Shown: positions 23,685 through 43,343 of the stretch, in pieces
How the letters are laid out: every line of letters starts with the position of its first letter
Position numbering within the stretch: the first letter of the stretch is position 1
NCBI GenBank assembly: GCA_029556545.1
Contig: JAKQEQ010000153.1
Span: 1 to 43,347, forward strand
Origin: Candidatus Hydrogenedentota bacterium
GTDB taxonomy: Bacteria; Hydrogenedentota; Hydrogenedentia; Hydrogenedentales; JAGMZX01
Length of the DNA stretch: 43,347 bases
Reading direction: 5' to 3'
Notes under the pieces: generated by a model
Database searches by the model: none
What the model saw: the letters and a program-made list of their open reading frames with translations, nothing else
Told to the model about the DNA's origin: nothing
Made by a program: the position numbers and the translations under genes

Positions 23685-25271
23685 TTATTCTTCGTGGCCG
23701 CGGGATTTCAGTAGCCGGTACTCGAAGCTGTCGACGAGGGCGAGGTAGGAGGCGGTGATGATGTTCTCGGAGACGCCGACGGTATTCCAGAGGTTGCCCT
23801 GGCTGTCGGCGGACTCGATGAGGACGCGGGTCTTGGCGCCGGTGGCCTCTTTGCCGTCGAGGATGCGCACCTTGTAGTCCGCGAGGTGTATGTCGCGCAG
23901 TTCGGGATAACGCCCCTCGAGGGCCTGGCGCAGCGCGTGGTTCAGGGCGTCGACGGGGCCGTTGCCCTCGGCGACGGTGTGATATGCGCGGCCGTCGATG
24001 TCGAGCTTGACGGTGGCCTCGGCGAAATCGTTCCCGGCGGTGAAGCGGTGCCAGACGCCGGCGTGGAAACGCAGGGTCTTGAAGAAGCGGCGGTACTTGC
24101 CGGTGGCGCGGCGGATTTCGAGTTCGAGCGAGGCGTCCGCGCCCTCGAATTCATAGCCTTGGTTTTCGAGGTCCTTGATCCGGGCGAGGATTTTTCGCGT
24201 TTCGGGCTGATCGCGGTCGAGGGGGATGCCGAATTCCTCGGCCTTTTCGAGGAGGCTCGATCTCCCTGACACTTCGCTGACGGCGATTTTGGTGCGGTTG
24301 CCGACGAGGGCCGGGTCCACGTGCTCGTAGCTCGCCTTGAACTTCCGCACGGCGTCGGCGTGCATGCCGCCCTTGTGCGTGAAGGCGTCGCGGCCCACGT
24401 AGGGCGCGAAATCGCGCGGCGTCTGGTTCGCCATCTCGGCGACGAAATGGGAGACGTGCCACAGCCGGGCCAGATGCTCCGGCGTGACCACGTCCAGCCC
24501 CATCTTGATCTGGAGGTTCGGGATAATCGTGCACAAGTTCGCGTTGCCTGTCCGCTCGCCGTAGCCGTTGATCGTGCCCTGGACCTGTTCGGCCCCTTCC
24601 GCGACAGCGGCGAGCGCGTTCGCCACGCCGCAGCCGGAGTCGTTGTGCGTGTGGATGCCGAGCCGGGCGTCGGGCAGGGCGCGCCGCACGGTCGCTGTGA
24701 TCCGGGCCACGTCCGCGGGCAGGCTGCCCCCGTTCGTGTCGCAGAGAATCAGGACCTCTGCGCCCGCCTCGAGGGCGGTGCGCAGCACGTCGAGCGCATA
24801 CGCCTCGTCCTCGCGAAAGGCGTCGAAGAAATGCTCCGCGTCCAGGAACACGCGCCTGTCGTGCTGTCTCAGAAAATCGACGGACTCGCGCACTATCTCG
24901 ATGTTCTTTTCGAGGGGCACGTGGAGCACCTCGCGCGTGTGGAGCGGCGACGTCTTCGCGAAGATGGTGACAATCTCGGTGCCGGCGCCGACGAGCGCGC
25001 GCAGGTTGCTGTCCTCGTCCGTACGGGCCCGGGGATTGCGCGTGCTGCCGAAGGCGGCCATCTTGGCGTGTTTGAGTTCCATATCACGCGCACGCTCGAA
25101 GAGCGCGACCGCCTTCGGGTTCGCGCCCGGCTGGCCGCCCTCGATGTAGGCGACGCCGAGTTCGTCGAGTTCGCGCACCACGCGCAGTTGGTCCTCGGAC
25201 GAAAACTTCACGCCCGGCCCCTGCGCGCCGTCGCGCAGTGTCGTGTCGTAGATTTCAATGCGTCGTGCCAC
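23685..25271 (-). CDS. cimA: (R)-citramalate synthase
   Basis: A 528-residue enzyme that condenses pyruvate and acetyl-CoA to citramalate, the start of a threonine-independent isoleucine route. The HMGL-like barrel begins IYDTTLRDGAQGPG, with the metal-site HTHNDSGCGVAN and NGYGERTGNANL. The C-terminal LeuA-type regulatory domain starts near residue 400. Length and the DTNGG motif favour the CimA branch over 2-isopropylmalate synthase. The start is GTG, with no visible ribosome binding site; a TTTAGGG array ends 12 bases upstream of the start codon, where a leader would normally be. Confidence 0.93.
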   Translation of the reverse strand: MARRIEIYDTTLRDGAQGPGVKFSSEDQLRVVRELDELGVAYIEGGQPGANPKAVALFERARDMELKHAKMAAFGSTRNPRARTDEDSNLRALVGAGTEIVTIFAKTSPLHTREVLHVPLEKNIEIVRESVDFLRQHDRRVFLDAEHFFDAFREDEAYALDVLRTALEAGAEVLILCDTNGGSLPADVARITATVRRALPDARLGIHTHNDSGCGVANALAAVAEGAEQVQGTINGYGERTGNANLCTIIPNLQIKMGLDVVTPEHLARLWHVSHFVAEMANQTPRDFAPYVGRDAFTHKGGMHADAVRKFKASYEHVDPALVGNRTKIAVSEVSGRSSLLEKAEEFGIPLDRDQPETRKILARIKDLENQGYEFEGADASLELEIRRATGKYRRFFKTLRFHAGVWHRFTAGNDFAEATVKLDIDGRAYHTVAEGNGPVDALNHALRQALEGRYPELRDIHLADYKVRILDGKEATGAKTRVLIESADSQGNLWNTVGVSENIITASYLALVDSFEYRLLKSRGHEE

Positions 25272-25282
25272 GGTGTGTTTGC

Positions 25283-25310
25283 TTTAGGGTTTAGGGTTTA
25301 GGGTTTAGGG
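25283..25310 (+). repeat. (TTTAGGG)4 plant-telomere-type repeat, copy A
   Basis: Four perfect heptamers on the plus strand, lying between the start of cimA (25271) and the stop of the four-helix-bundle gene (25327). On the minus strand it reads (CCCTAAA)4 followed by GCAAAC, immediately before cimA. Confidence 0.97.
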
Positions 25311-25326
25311 TTCGTCGAGGGCTCGT

Positions 25327-25698
25327 CTAATTATCCGGGGCATCCTCCAGGGATTTTATGAGCGCGTTAAGTAAACGCCCGACGTCCTGGGCGAGTTCCC
25401 ACACCGGTAACGTGTCTTCACGTTGAGCAAAGCCCAGTCGGGTCGCGATGGTCAGATGCGTCTCCATTTCGGCCTTCGAGCCACGGGCGATGGAGAGGTG
25501 GCGCAGGTAGTCGCCGCGATGCACGCGCGCATAGCCCTCCGCGATATTCGCGGGAACGGATACGGCGGCGCGTTGTAGTTGACTCGCGAGCCCGTATCGC
25601 TCCTCCGGCGGAAACCGCCGCGACAGATCATATACGGCAACGACCAAATCCATGGCTTTCCGCCAGACCGTAAGGTCTCGATAGGTCTTGAGCGCCAT
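25327..25698 (-). CDS. Four-helix-bundle protein (23S rRNA intervening-sequence family)
   Basis: The 123-residue protein starts MALKTYRDLTVWRKAMDLVV and contains LASQLQRAAVSVPANIAEGYAR, the signature of the four-helix-bundle family first found in intervening sequences of 23S rRNA and related in fold to Avd proteins of diversity-generating retroelements. Members occur as stand-alone chromosomal genes in many environmental genomes and may bind nucleic acid; the function is unknown. TTTAGGG repeats lie on both sides, and two decayed partial copies follow at 25796 and 25903. There is no strong ribosome binding site. Confidence 0.9.
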   Translation of the reverse strand: MALKTYRDLTVWRKAMDLVVAVYDLSRRFPPEERYGLASQLQRAAVSVPANIAEGYARVHRGDYLRHLSIARGSKAEMETHLTIATRLGFAQREDTLPVWELAQDVGRLLNALIKSLEDAPDN

Positions 25699-25709
25699 GA
25701 CGCCTTTGC

Positions 25710-25737
25710 TTTACGGTTTAGGGTTTAGGGTTTAGGA
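25710..25737 (+). repeat. TTTAGGG repeat, copy B (four units, two mutated)
   Basis: Units TTTACGG, TTTAGGG, TTTAGGG, TTTAGGA lie just upstream (in the minus direction) of the four-helix-bundle gene. The junction to the gene side reads TAAAGCAAA on the minus strand, the same as at copy A beside cimA. Confidence 0.93.
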
Positions 25738-25795
25738 GGTAAGAGATCAGGGTTCAGGGCTCGTTGTAGAAGCCCGCTCCGCCAGTTCCCGGTGT

Positions 25796-25862
25796 GTTCC
25801 TCCAGAGATTTCACGAGTCCGTTCAGTAGGCGCCCGACTTTCTGGGCAAGCTCACAAACGAG
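25796..25862 (-). pseudogene. Decayed partial copy 1 of the four-helix-bundle gene (C-terminal part)
   Basis: The stretch TCCTCCAGAGATTTCACGAG and the following CAGTAGGCGCCCGACTTTCT align with TCCTCCAGGGATTTTATGAG and the AGTAAACGCCCGACGTCCT near the 3' end of the intact gene at 25346-25400. The upstream flank GGGTTC..AGGGCTCGT also matches the flank next to repeat copy A. It is too short and mutated to be translated. Confidence 0.8.
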
Positions 25863-25902
25863 CCGCGCCTCTTGTTTTCCAGTTAACATTGTGATGCTCT
25901 CA

Positions 25903-26030
25903 CGACTTCATGACTCCATTCAATAAGGGCGCAATTTCCTGGGGCCAGTCCCCCGACCGGTAACGTGTGTTCGCGTTGGGCGGTACCCAGCCGGGCGACA
26001 ATTGTCAGGCATGCCTCCATTTTCAGCCAA
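25903..26030 (-). pseudogene. Decayed partial copy 2 of the four-helix-bundle gene
   Basis: Contains ACCGGTAACGTGTGTTCGCG, which aligns with ACCGGTAACGTGTCTTCACG in the intact gene (from about 25402), and flanking matches covering roughly the last 45 codons of the gene. Substitutions and small gaps break the frame. Together with copy 1 this fills most of the 373-bp gap between the intact gene and apgM; I see no other gene in that gap. Confidence 0.8.
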
Positions 26031-26069
26031 CTAACCGCAGGCCTGTTTCCGAGTTCGATACATTTTCAA

Positions 26070-26089
26070 CCCTAGACCCTAAACCCTAT
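26070..26089 (-). repeat. TTTAGGG repeat, copy C (opposite orientation, inside the 3' end of apgM)
   Basis: The plus strand reads CCCTAGACCCTAAACCCTA, so the TTTAGGG strand here is the minus strand, opposite to copies A and B. The repeat encodes the last residues and the stop codon of apgM. Confidence 0.85.
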
Positions 26090-27304
26090 TCTGTCCTCCC
26101 GGAATAACCGCTCCGTCAACTGATAGCCCTCGCGCAGTTCGATGCCCGTCCGCGCCGCTTCCTTCTCCGAATACGCCGCGACGCCAATCGGCTCCACGCC
26201 CGCGCCGCACAGGGCGAAGGGCGTCGCATCGCCGTAATGGCCCTTGGTGCTCAGCAGCGTGAAATGGTCCGGCGCCACGAGCAGCCGGGCCTCGCCGGTG
26301 CGCTCGACATAATTGAGGAACGGGGCCACGACCTTCGCATCGAAGTCCTCGATGGCCTGAATCTTCAGGTCGGCCCTGCCCTGGTGCGCGGCCTCGTCCG
26401 GCGCCTCGACATGTACATACACGAAGTCATGCCTACTGAGCGCGTCCATCGCCGCGGCGACCTTGCCGGCGTAATTGGTATCGATCCACCCGGTCGCGCC
26501 GGGCACGTCGATGACCTCGAGTCCAGCCAGCACGCCGAGCCCTTTCACCAGGTCGACCGCCGAAACCACCGCGCCGGAGACGCCAAATTTCTCGCGGTAG
26601 GGGGCCATCGCGGGCGTGGTGCCCTGACCCCACAGCCACGCGGAGGTCGCGGTAAGCTTGCCAGCGGCGGCGCGGCGCGCGTTCACCTCGTGGCCAGCCA
26701 GGACGCCCTGGGACTGTCGCATGATCTCGGCGACGCAACTGGCCGCCGGACCCTGGGGCCAGTAGGCCTGGTGCGGCTGGTCCATGATGTTGTGCGGCGG
26801 CGTACAGTCCGTGGCCACAAGGTCCTCGACGCTCGCGCCGGGCCCGGCGGTCACCACCGCGAGGTGGCGGTACGAGACGCCGGGATGAAAGCGCACGGAG
26901 CCGGCCCCGGACAAGGCGGCATCCAGCGACGCGATAATCGCCGCGCCCTCTTCGCTTGTGATATGGCCCGCGGTAAAGTCGCGCATGACGCCATCTTCGA
27001 GGGTCACCAGATTGCAGCGGAACGCGACCTGGTCCGCGGCCAGCGAAATGCGGCGGCTTGCGGCCTCGATGGGCGCCCGGCCACAAAAGGTCGTGCGCGG
27101 GTCGTAGCCGAACAGGGACAGGTTGCCGATCTCGCTGCCCGCGGGCATGCCTTCGGGAATCGGCCAGTACATTCCGACGACGCCGTGGCGCGCCACGGCG
27201 TCCAGGGCGGGGATGTGCGCCGCTTCGAGGGGCGTGCGGTCGCCCAGCGCCGGAACAGGTAGATCGGCCATGCCGTCGCCGACAAGAATGATATACTTCA
27301 TCAT
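26072..27304 (-). CDS. ApgM-type 2,3-bisphosphoglycerate-independent phosphoglycerate mutase (or proposed homoserine kinase)
   Basis: A 410-residue member of the alkaline phosphatase superfamily. Metal-site residues are visible in ILVGDGMADLP at the start, the nucleophile region GSEIGNLSLFGYDP, HVEAPDEAAHQG, and APDHFTLLSTKGHYGDATPF. The family interconverts 3- and 2-phosphoglycerate, but a bacterial subgroup has been proposed to replace homoserine kinase; the neighbour cimA (isoleucine synthesis) makes that worth considering. The last six residues (RIGFRV) and the stop are encoded by a TTTAGGG-type repeat, so the original C-terminus appears to have been replaced. The start is MMKYIILVGDG. 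Confidence 0.87.
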   Translation of the reverse strand: MMKYIILVGDGMADLPVPALGDRTPLEAAHIPALDAVARHGVVGMYWPIPEGMPAGSEIGNLSLFGYDPRTTFCGRAPIEAASRRISLAADQVAFRCNLVTLEDGVMRDFTAGHITSEEGAAIIASLDAALSGAGSVRFHPGVSYRHLAVVTAGPGASVEDLVATDCTPPHNIMDQPHQAYWPQGPAASCVAEIMRQSQGVLAGHEVNARRAAAGKLTATSAWLWGQGTTPAMAPYREKFGVSGAVVSAVDLVKGLGVLAGLEVIDVPGATGWIDTNYAGKVAAAMDALSRHDFVYVHVEAPDEAAHQGRADLKIQAIEDFDAKVVAPFLNYVERTGEARLLVAPDHFTLLSTKGHYGDATPFALCGAGVEPIGVAAYSEKEAARTGIELREGYQLTERLFREDRIGFRV

Positions 27305-32761: not shown

Positions 32762-32779
32762 TGGGGGGTGAGCCGCCCG

Positions 32780-32815
32780 GTGGACCAAGTGGACTGGGTG
32801 GACCGGGTGGACCGA
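32780..32815 (+). repeat. GTGGACCRR 9-bp tandem array (intergenic)
   Basis: Four units: GTGGACCAA, GTGGACTGG, GTGGACCGG, GTGGACCGA, with decayed units following. It lies between the ABC operon and the four-helix-bundle suffix gene. It belongs to the same family as the arrays inside that gene. Confidence 0.9.
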
Positions 32816-32864
32816 ACGGCCCCGGTGGGTCAAGGGAACTTCGGGGATGGTTTCTTATGGTGGT

Positions 32865-33629
32865 TCATTCTCGGTTCCTTCGTCTTTTTCGGGTACGGTA
32901 AAGGCGTTCGGTGAAGCCGCCGTTTTTCTCGAAGGCTTTGGCCTGGGCCTCGACCTGCCGCCCGAGCAGTGCCGAGGCCACAGCGATTAGGACAAGAGCG
33001 GCGTTTGCGGCGATCTCGGGGTAGGTGGGCGGGGCACCCTGCTGGGTGGACCGAGTGGACCCGGTGGACTTGGTGGACGCGGGGGTTGTTGGGGCGCCGC
33101 CCGGTGCGCCCGAAGCACTCGACCCGCCGCCCGGCCCATCATTGGTCTTGGCTGACGCAGCCGGTCCACCCGGTCCACCCGGTCCACCGCGTCCCTGCCG
33201 CTCCCTCTCATAGACTTCCCGCACCCACGCGGCCACTTCGTCGGCGTTCTTGAGCCGTCGGTCGATCAGTTCTTGGCGGCGCGGGTCTTCGCGGGGCCAT
33301 ATCGGCAGGTTGCGATGTCTCAGGAAGTCCTCGTAATCCAGGCGCAGTTCGTCCAGACTTGCTCGGGCCACGTTGGTCAGTTTCATCTCCATTTTCTTGG
33401 ATGTGCCCGAGGCGCGGCTTCCCTCGGCGATATTCTGCACGCCCGACCGCGCGGCCTGGACCATATGGTCCGTTGTCCTGCTCGACTCATCGATATAGCG
33501 ATCACAGAAACGGACCGTCACGTCATAGACCAGCCGCGCGACCTGAAAGCTGCGCAAGCGCCGGAACCCGCCGTGCGGCGGGATCAGCGGCTCCCGCTCC
33601 CTGATGTCCAACCCTCCTCTCGACCGCAT
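32865..33629 (-). CDS. Four-helix-bundle 'suffix'-domain protein with repeat-derived linker
   Basis: A 254-residue protein. The first 110 residues are a four-helix-bundle domain (GGFRRLRSFQVARLVYDVTVRFCDRYI, then MVQAARSGVQNIAEGSRASGTSKK), related to the intervening-sequence proteins. The C-terminus (LGRQVEAQAKAFEKNGGFTERLYRTRKRR) is the suffix domain that marks this subgroup. Between them, about 60 residues are low complexity: GGPGGPGGP from one 9-bp array and STKSTGSTRSTQ from another in the opposite orientation. The linker is usually short, so repeat insertion has lengthened it. Function is unknown, possibly nucleic-acid binding. The ATG at 33629 is one of several possible starts. Confidence 0.82.
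   Translation of the reverse strand: MRSRGGLDIREREPLIPPHGGFRRLRSFQVARLVYDVTVRFCDRYIDESSRTTDHMVQAARSGVQNIAEGSRASGTSKKMEMKLTNVARASLDELRLDYEDFLRHRNLPIWPREDPRRQELIDRRLKNADEVAAWVREVYERERQGRGGPGGPGGPAASAKTNDGPGGGSSASGAPGGAPTTPASTKSTGSTRSTQQGAPPTYPEIAANAALVLIAVASALLGRQVEAQAKAFEKNGGFTERLYRTRKRRRNRE
33046..33081 (+). repeat. GTGGAC 9-bp tandem array inside the suffix-protein gene (antisense to it)
   Basis: Units GTGGACCGA, GTGGACCCG, GTGGACTTG, GTGGACGCG on the plus strand. The gene runs on the minus strand and translates the array as Ser-Thr-Xaa repeats (STKSTGSTRST). Confidence 0.9.
33161..33187 (-). repeat. GTGGACCGG 9-bp tandem array inside the suffix-protein gene (sense)
   Basis: Three identical units CCGGTCCAC on the plus strand, i.e. 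GTGGACCGG on the minus strand. They are inverted relative to the array 80 bases away. The gene translates this one as collagen-like Gly-Gly-Pro repeats. Confidence 0.9.
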
Positions 33630-38674: not shown

Positions 38675-40060
38675 TTATGCGCGCGCGAGGTCGCGGGCGA
38701 CGTCCGCCCGGTACGCCTGCCAGGCCGGCAGCACGCCCGCGAGCATCCCGACAAACAGGATGACGCCATAGGCGTTCAGGGCGTCGCGGCCCAGGGTAAA
38801 CGCGCCGATAGTCATGCCGAACCGGGCGCTCATGAACGCGCTCAGGCCGTAGGTCGTCGCGCCGCCCAGCAGCCACCCGAGACCGATGCCGAGGAGCGTG
38901 ACCCAGAACGCCTCGATGAGGATGGCCCCAAAAATCTCGTAGGCCGATGCCCCAAGCGCGCGCATGATAGCGAGATCGCGGCGCCGCTGTAAAATCGAGA
39001 GGTAGAGACCGATGAGAATCGACAGCGCGGATACGACCACAACGAGGTAGCCCACGGCGAGCAGCACCGTCTTGGCCGTGCTCAGCAGTTGGTCGTAAAG
39101 CCGCTCGATGACTTGAATCGGGATGTCCGCCGCCGCGTTGTACTTCCGGTTCACGAGGTCCTTGAAGTAGAACCGGTCTCCGGGACTGTCCAGTTGCACG
39201 AGCACCGCCGTCACCTGGTCCGCGGCATGCGTCTGCTGCTCCTGCGGCGATGTCCCAGATTGCTCGTGTGCGTGCTCGTGCTCACGCTCGAGTTCGTACT
39301 CGTACTCGTGCTCGCACTCGTCCACGTGATCATGATCCGCGTGGTCATCTTCCTCCGCACCATGCCACTCGGGGAAATGGCCCGCTTCTCCATGTATCTC
39401 CCATACGGAATGGATATCGGTGAACAGAGCACGATCGTTGGGCGAATTCGAGGGCTGCAAGATGCCGACAACCATGTACGGCGTATCCGCGTGGCTGTGC
39501 CCGCCCACCTGTTCGAGCACGCGCTCCGAGAGTTCGATGAAGCCGTGTGTGCCGACGACCTGATCGCCGAGTATCACGCCCGTCGTGCGCGCCACATGCG
39601 CGCCGAGCACAATCTCCATCGGGGCTTCGAAGTTGCGTCCTTCGGCGAAGGCGAGGACGCGGGCGCGTTCCTCGGTGCGCACGTCGAGGCGCGTATGTTC
39701 GAGATACTCGCTCGTCGTACCGACGATCGGGAACCCCTGGAAGCTGTCGCCGATGCCGATGGGGAACGCGGCATGCACGAATTCCTCTTCGCGGATGGCC
39801 TCGTACACGTCGAGCGCGATATTGCCCGGCGGGCGGTCCATGAAATACACGGCGCACAGGACCAGTTGCAGGGCGCTGCCCTTCGCGCCGACGACGATGT
39901 CGAAGGTCTGGCCCTCTTCCTCGAACCGTTTCCGCGTTTCATCGCGTAAGGTGAGGACCGCCGTGATCAGGGCGACGCCGAGGGCGACCGAGAGCATCGT
40001 CAAGACGGTTGTCAGCTTGCGGTGCCAGAGGTAGGTCCACGCGATGCGCCAGAGGCTCAT
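38675..40060 (-). CDS. FtsX/MacB-type ABC permease with His-rich periplasmic insertion
   Basis: A 461-residue permease with TM1 near residues 17-37 (TVLTMLSVALGVALITAVLTL) and three C-terminal membrane segments (LLAVGYLVVVVSALSILIGLYL, AFWVTLLGIGLGWLLGG, YGVILFVGMLAGVLPAW). The large periplasmic domain contains a stretch at residues 223-267 with more than ten His and many Asp and Glu (HADHDHVDECEHEYEY). Such loops bind zinc, nickel or copper. LolCE/MacB-type permeases transmit force to periplasmic partners rather than importing a solute. The gene start overlaps the ATPase gene by ATGA, and the DUF3299 gene follows. Confidence 0.85.
   Translation of the reverse strand: MSLWRIAWTYLWHRKLTTVLTMLSVALGVALITAVLTLRDETRKRFEEEGQTFDIVVGAKGSALQLVLCAVYFMDRPPGNIALDVYEAIREEEFVHAAFPIGIGDSFQGFPIVGTTSEYLEHTRLDVRTEERARVLAFAEGRNFEAPMEIVLGAHVARTTGVILGDQVVGTHGFIELSERVLEQVGGHSHADTPYMVVGILQPSNSPNDRALFTDIHSVWEIHGEAGHFPEWHGAEEDDHADHDHVDECEHEYEYELEREHEHAHEQSGTSPQEQQTHAADQVTAVLVQLDSPGDRFYFKDLVNRKYNAAADIPIQVIERLYDQLLSTAKTVLLAVGYLVVVVSALSILIGLYLSILQRRRDLAIMRALGASAYEIFGAILIEAFWVTLLGIGLGWLLGGATTYGLSAFMSARFGMTIGAFTLGRDALNAYGVILFVGMLAGVLPAWQAYRADVARDLARA
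39262..39320. repeat. GAGTAC/GAGCAC hexanucleotide array encoding the His/Glu/Tyr stretch
   Basis: On the minus strand the coding repeat is GAG-CAC or GAG-TAC (Glu-His, Glu-Tyr), giving EHEYEYE and EHEHAHE. The same GAGTAC hexamer forms an array at 43323-43343 near the end of the window. Confidence 0.8.
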
Positions 40061-41120: not shown

Positions 41121-41241
41121 CGCCGCGTTATCTCCTGCCATTGCGCCGCGCCCGCATACGCGCGGCCCGCACGAAGGTAATACTACAGCGGGGGCCTTGG
41201 GTTCCACATGCGCGCCCAGCCGCTCGCTCCGGAGGAGAGGG

Positions 41242-41262
41242 TTTAGGGTTTAGGGTTTAGGG
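41242..41262 (+). repeat. (TTTAGGG)3 repeat, copy D
   Basis: Three perfect heptamers in the gap between the small membrane protein and the NagB-type gene. No four-helix-bundle gene is visible here. The rest of the gap (41142-41394) holds nothing I recognise. Confidence 0.95.
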
Positions 41263-41394
41263 TGACGGTTGGTAGCTGGAGCCCTTCAATCGGGGTTGTG
41301 GCGCGGTTCCTGCGTTCGTCACGCGCGGCGCAGTCCGGCAAAGGCAGAGAGGGTTGCGCACTATCGAGGCAGGCGCCGCGCGGTTCGCGGTGCG

Positions 41395-43276: not shown

Positions 43277-43322
43277 GGGCGTCCCTCGTTCACGGGTCCT
43301 TGCCGGAGGCTGAACAGGGCGC

Positions 43323-43343
43323 GAGTACGAGTACGAGTACGAG
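43323..43343. repeat. (GAGTAC)3 hexanucleotide array
   Basis: Three perfect GAGTAC units and a partial fourth, upstream of the possible caspase-like gene and close to the window end. It is the same hexamer as in the His-rich loop of the FtsX permease gene. Confidence 0.9.

Follow-up and report, generated by a model that had tools for sequence, protein, structure and literature searches.

Why do short arrays of the heptamer TTTAGGG, which resembles the plant telomere repeat, bracket a gene for a small four-helix-bundle (FHB) protein and its decayed copies in a bacterial genome? The arrays lie in a 43,347-nucleotide stretch of DNA from Candidatus Hydrogenedentota bacterium (contig JAKQEQ010000153.1, assembly GCA_029556545.1), which was analysed as a whole and is called the window below. 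A preliminary description, made from the letters of the window, had taken TTTAGGG as the mark of a repeat-bounded unit. The FHB protein belongs to the 23S-rRNA-IVP/S23 family; proteins of this kind (PF05635) are common and their structures have been solved, and we know of no function for them. Among the periodic DNA of prokaryotic intergenic regions, heptamer arrays have been described as the most abundant kind, with no clue to their function (PMC6344855).

Results

The locus contains one intact and two decayed copies of a repeat-bounded unit

The features of the locus are collected in Table 1. The four TTTAGGG arrays that had been reported are real and correctly placed: with up to two mismatches allowed, (TTTAGGG)2 matches the window 10 times, compared with 0.07 matches expected from shuffled sequences (largest number in a shuffle, 1). 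The intact FHB gene encodes a full member of PF05635 / TIGR02436 (profile search, E 1.1e-34), and both decayed copies were recovered by tblastn. Between the arms, the PF05635 ORF is the only one present, and a known transposase is not encoded. The TTTGC shared before the arrays and the recurring flank GGGTTC..AGGGCTCGT are readable in the sequence. The core of the preliminary description, a repeat-bounded unit that has been copied, is decaying and comes with no known transposase, was right.

Table 1. Positions of the arrays, FHB sequences and flanking genes in the window.
Feature	Position	Strand	Remarks
Citramalate synthase (cimA), flanking gene	23685-25271	-	TIGR00977
(TTTAGGG)4 array	25283-25310	+	3'-side arm of the intact FHB gene; reads CCCTAAA on the strand of the gene
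Intact FHB gene, 123 aa	25327-25698	-	PF05635 / TIGR02436 / NF008911
Degenerate TTTAGGG array	25710-25737	+	TTTACGG TTTAGGG TTTAGGG TTTAGGA
Decayed FHB copy 2, residues 99-123	25785-25859	-	tblastn, 68% identity
Weak further FHB fragment, residues 104-118, other frame	25897-25941		Goes with copy 3
Decayed FHB copy 3, residues 77-103	25943-26023	-	tblastn, 67% identity
Outer inverted arm of the cluster, mutated TTTAGGG type	26070-26090	-	
Cofactor-independent phosphoglycerate mutase (apgM), flanking gene	26072-27304	-	NF003242
Orphan TTTAGGG array, three perfect units (41242-41262), no FHB gene	41238-41263	+	

Read in the orientation of the gene, the cluster begins with the G-rich outer arm, which overlaps the last codons (3' end) of the apgM ORF ending at 26072, and continues with copies 3 and 2, the degenerate array, the intact gene and the C-rich (TTTAGGG)4 arm. 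The polarity of the latter fits the rule of the family, purine/G-rich upstream and C-rich downstream. The two arms that adjoin the intact gene form a direct rather than an inverted repeat, an arrangement for which the sole explanation that we offer is a nested second copy: judging from its polarity and position, the degenerate array, which today lies directly against the intact gene, would be the 3' C-rich arm of decayed copy 2. In all, the window contains three copies of the element, one of them intact and two decayed, and the cluster is best read as a site where insertion or duplication took place repeatedly and decay followed. Hexamer arrays of the CGAGTA/CTCGTA type are also present in the window (39261-39328 and 43322-43343) and at two other loci (L019; L275, at about 724); these hexamers recur in intergenic DNA of the same genome and look like another repeat system.

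The FHB protein has a conserved set of polar residues

The AlphaFold2 model of the intact FHB protein is a four-helix bundle (pLDDT 97.4). The closest PDB structure to the predicted fold is XCC0516 (2gsc, TM 0.9), followed by 2rld and then by Avd (4dwl) and the Avd chains of the DGR ribonucleoprotein (8ub7). According to Lin et al. 2006 (cited in PMC4990558), XCC0516 is a toroidal homopentamer. In an alignment of 138 homologues, the residues Q40, R43, E54 and E77 never vary, and conservation of S47 and N51 exceeds 90%. The constraint on these polar residues suggests a functional site, although the protein contains no known catalytic motif. More distant, bAvd-like genes, which match PF05635 in part (8-73), occur in the same genome (L006, L007 and L008; about 32779-33188 in the window). 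Arrays of a 9-base unit go with them, for instance GGTGGACCG and, inverted, CCGGTCCAC; this unit length is compatible with coding.

Period-7 arrays adjoin FHB genes across bacterial phyla

Arrays were counted around 81 FHB loci from about 40 genomes of the same order and around 80 loci of a cross-phylum sample (Chloroflexota, Acidobacteria, Cyanobacteria, Proteobacteria, Firmicutes, Planctomycetes, Patescibacteria and others). In the order set, the 500-bp bins adjacent to the gene contained 0.64 (upstream) and 0.69 (downstream) period-7 arrays, compared with ca. 0.02-0.06 farther out, while other periods were flat around FHB genes. Corresponding values in the cross-phylum set were 0.58 and 0.50 versus ca. 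0.06. When both sets were pooled, an array was found within 300 bp on 163 of 296 FHB sides (55%) and on 52 of 1300 sides (4%) of other long ORFs in the same regions, which served as controls (odds ratio 29, p 2e-92; p-values are nominal because the loci and genomes are phylogenetically related). The proximity of arrays to FHB genes that the preliminary description had expected holds once it is extended from TTTAGGG to heptamers in general.

The threshold used left about 45% of FHB sides without an array. Location of the gene inside rRNA was considered as a cause of array-less loci and rejected: a comparison of 20 such loci with Rfam revealed no rRNA; the sole hits were a tRNA and a group II intron, one of each. 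Carriage by phages was also looked for, and tblastn gave no hit among 50,697 phage records.

The heptamer varies from locus to locus, while its architecture is conserved

A search of the genome of the window revealed ten PF05635 matches. Other FHB genes in this genome have other heptamers: TAGGGAC/CAGGGAC with TCCCTAA opposite, GAATGCG with CATTCCG, AAATTCC, and AGCGGTC. An FHB gene adjoins only one of about a dozen places where TTTAGGG occurs in the genome; most arrays of this heptamer elsewhere have no FHB gene beside them, and they are often paired in inverted orientation at a distance of 100-400 bp. TTTAGGG is one allele among dozens of heptamers. Its choice as the mark of the unit was mistaken, the resemblance to the plant telomere repeat looks like a coincidence, and the preliminary interpretation as a whole is partly supported.

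Conserved across loci are the 7-base period, the inverted arrangement and a common register, which on the upstream strand is A-G-K-N-N-N-Y, with purines always at the A-G positions (TTTAGGG in this register is AGGGTTT). The length of the arms is sharply peaked at 30-33 bp (about 31 bp, or 4.3-4.7 units), and the outer edges of the arrays mostly start with AG and end with CT or CTA. At loci with arrays on both sides, the consensus units of the two arms are reverse complements of each other, matching at a mean of 6.18 of 7 positions, versus 3.88 for shuffled partners (maximum 4.53 in 2000 shuffles). Similarity of the units rises with similarity of the proteins (Mantel r 0.44 in Hydrogenedentota and 0.25 overall, with permutation maxima of 0.17 and 0.12, respectively); in the cross-phylum subset this co-variation is weak (r 0.08, p 0.04). 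Since the unit varies with the protein, the arrays may hold a readable protein-to-DNA or protein-to-RNA code.

A minority of FHB elements (L198, L205, L226, L218, L206 and L302) have an 8-base unit, with examples in Brucella/Ochrobactrum (TAAGGGAG) and Picosynechococcus PCC 7003. At one locus (L238), the flanks just outside both arrays are also inverted (TCGGCGCC...GGCGCCGA), so that the inverted repeat can extend past the array.

Related genomes and plasmids carry the same sites without the element

Comparison with loci lacking the unit, which the preliminary description had proposed, favours its reading: related genomes and plasmids without the unit keep the same gene order. The flanks of the window element (cimA and apgM; 84% and 80% identical) are adjacent in the sister genome G001, without an FHB gene or arrays, and the same is true for the flanks of a second element of this kind, C140 (84% and 81% identical), where homology picks up again at the outer edge of the right array. 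Both vacant Hydrogenedentota sites are not clean to the base, as G001 carries its own unrelated intergenic DNA there. Plasmids of cyanobacteria offer better sites: nrdB-FHB-nrdA of Nostoc edaphicum corresponds to nrdB-nrdA of Calothrix, and a site filled in Pseudanabaena galeata is empty in ABRG5-3. Anabaena sp. 90 has cas4-FHB-cas6, and Dolichospermum, with flanks that are 99% identical, carries another repeat where the element would be. The repeat at this Dolichospermum site (L298, ca. 1500-1730) is itself an inverted-repeat element of about 250 bp (TAGGTTGGGTTAAGC...CAACCCAACCTA). Three further pairs of filled and empty sites agree.

The cleanest site is in a conjugation operon of Trichormus variabilis and Scytonema, which reads AAAAAGTAAT / 423-bp element / GTAATTAACAAAT; in the 98%-identical plasmids of Nostoc linckia and Tolypothrix the same site is empty and reads AAAAAGTAATTAACAAAT. 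The T. variabilis insert thus consists of 423 bp plus a 5-bp duplication, GTAAT. This is the only site with a readable duplication, the junctions of the remaining ones being too diverged or scrambled for one to be read. Nostoc sp. C052 carries a truncated remnant at this same site in the conjugation operon, and at a second site in ATCC 53789 the inverted pair of arrays is kept and the gene is absent, as an orphan pair would look (the gene-less derivative and the truncated remnant at known insertion sites are L313 and L310). One FHB family is present on five further Nostocales plasmids, with homology confined to the element. We conclude that the arrays are the ends of the element, and that copies which lose the gene leave orphan arrays or inverted pairs behind.

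The elements insert between co-transcribed genes within operons, often immediately behind a stop codon, and most FHB genes have the same orientation as their neighbours (94:28 upstream, 74:48 downstream). FHB elements are also seen inside CRISPR operons (L296, 44265-44633; L300; L302), twice between cas4 and cas6 of type I-D, with different units, and once between cas10 and cmr3 of type III-B.

Mobility of FHB elements is well supported by these comparisons of sequences. The locus in the window is probably a decayed cluster of minimal mobile elements, each with a gene for an FHB protein of ca. 120 amino acids between inverted 7-base arrays.

The load of gene-less arrays follows the number of FHB genes

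In a comparison of 68 genomes within one class, the array load (pattern count) correlated with the number of FHB genes (Spearman 0.76). A control with the backward pattern also catches real heptamer arrays of other register and is not a clean null; genomes were therefore compared by the sum. The median number of array windows per genome was 0 in FHB-less and 15 in FHB-bearing genomes, with up to 1131. Sister pairs differed in the same way: 122 in the genome of the window (G000) versus 2 in G001, and 96 in G021 versus 1 in G015. Units of orphan arrays matched those of resident FHB elements at 6.26 of 7 positions versus 5.09 for mismatched genera, values that are indicative only, as the orphan units were compiled by hand from a partial list. 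The dependence of gene-less repeats on a resident FHB gene is thus correlational. The orphan array at 41242 in the window has flanking genes that sit on different contigs in G001. Four Hydrogenedentota genomes (G027, G014, G037 and G060) contain hundreds of heptamer array windows, which suggests recent amplification.

Discussion

The way in which such an element might move can be outlined from its structure. A pentamer of the FHB protein would recognise the arms of ca. 31 bp, with their 4-5 heptamers, perhaps one per subunit, and would bring both ends together for cutting and joining. These steps could be carried out by the FHB protein itself, through the invariant Q/R/E/E, or by recruited host enzymes. 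The protein may also act in trans on gene-less arrays, in the manner proposed for RAYT transposases and REP sequences. In its widest form, the proposal is that the IVP/S23 FHB family is an unrecognised recombinase or the specificity subunit of one, a pentamer reading about five units per end, which drives minimal mobile elements throughout bacteria and is the source of heptamer arrays in cyanobacteria, xanthomonads and others. We put this forward tentatively, as a possibility that falls somewhat short of an even chance.

The arrays could also be an RNA device, with arms that pair in the transcript and allow RNase III to remove the insert from the mRNA, so that the element is tolerated in operons; movement would then be rare and due to host recombination, and the protein would bind RNA. 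This explanation is possible, if rather less than probable. The same protein family sits in rRNA intervening sequences (IVSs), and in the IVS of Coxiella tandem heptamers precede the S23 ORF, while RNase III cuts a terminal stem of 28 bp (PMC4990558); Avd, a relative, belongs to an RNA-containing particle, and both the position of insertions inside operons and the prevailing co-orientation with neighbours are in line with processing of a transcript. An RNA device alone leaves unexplained that an insertion came with a duplication, that gene-less arrays scale with the number of FHB genes, and that antisense insertions occur, such as that at the Nostoc nrd site. We therefore regard the RNase III/IVS model as a serious companion to the mobile-element reading rather than a strict alternative to it.

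Other explanations fare less well. Movement by reverse transcription, in which the FHB protein would partner a resident reverse transcriptase (RT) as Avd does, is suggested by the fold match to Avd and the DGR ribonucleoprotein and by the RTs encoded in several array-rich genomes, but we consider it unlikely: G000 (96% completeness) has FHB elements, many arrays and no RVT_1 hit, G016, G049, G055 and G056 likewise combine elements and arrays with no RVT_1 hit, and G001 encodes an RT and is almost without arrays. RT is not required for the element, because none is detectable in G000, and as a necessary requirement reverse transcription was rejected. It is very unlikely that the arrays came first, built in intergenic DNA by replication slippage, with FHB genes settling in as cargo. 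Heptamer arrays are indeed abundant in prokaryotes (PMC6344855), and one FHB-less sister site (L301) has a short orphan array; however, the empty sites of the elements are without an array, FHB-less genomes have almost no arrays, and the arms are inverted and match each other, unlike a split array. Eukaryotic telomere contamination or an assembly artefact, to which only the resemblance to the plant repeat points, has a negligible probability and was rejected: the arrays are short and internal, embedded among bacterial genes on a 175-kb contig and recurring across the genome, and the same architecture is found with dozens of other units, also on complete plasmids.

If the elements are mobile as proposed, heptamer arrays and PF05635 proteins, seemingly parts of a single system, would represent a further class of mobile element with no known transposase; S23 ORFs within rRNA IVSs would be explained, and FHB elements may be the source of unexplained 7-base arrays in many bacteria. 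An IVP protein has been listed among CRISPR-associated candidates (PMC10910872). Some reported neighbours of CRISPR genes may be hitchhikers, and FHB elements in CRISPR operons may explain the published association scores of 23S rRNA IVP. A literature search, which covered few subscription papers and no preprints, revealed no prior account of a mobile element ended by inverted heptamer arrays, and nothing that joins heptamer arrays, S23 ORFs and IVSs, each of which is known separately.

Several known systems share part of this design. RAYTs are transposases of the HUH/Y1 type, and a REP is a single palindrome. FHB elements are similar in that a short gene lies between inverted repeats and many gene-less copies of the resident repeat are present, but the protein has the FHB fold and the ends are tandem heptamers. 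With insertion sequences and MITEs they share terminal inverted repeats and internally deleted derivatives, and a short duplication that may be of the target is readable at one site; unlike these, they encode no known transposase, and their end arrays differ between elements and match within one. The DGR protein Avd, which works with a reverse transcriptase and template/variable repeats, has the same fold; RT and such repeats were not found with FHB elements, and Avd is without flanking heptamers as far as seen.

Orphan heptamer arrays with the same 7-base period and intergenic location are also known, the cyanobacterial STRRs among them. Further examples are the GGGAATC repeats of Xanthomonas, often in inverted pairs (PMC4692102), and the TAACTGA repeats of Beggiatoaceae (PMC4679880). 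Such arrays have been reported without a gene or a mechanism, and in the texts searched they are not tied to FHB proteins. The 23S rRNA IVS, for example that of Coxiella burnetii, resembles FHB elements in its protein family, its size of about 420 nt, its terminal inverted stem and the tandem heptamers before its ORF (PMC4990558). FHB elements differ from it in lying outside rRNA, between protein genes (cimA and apgM in the case of the window copy), in having heptamer arrays as arms, and in having gene-less relatives across the genome. The rRNA IVSs are probably a specialised form of such elements.
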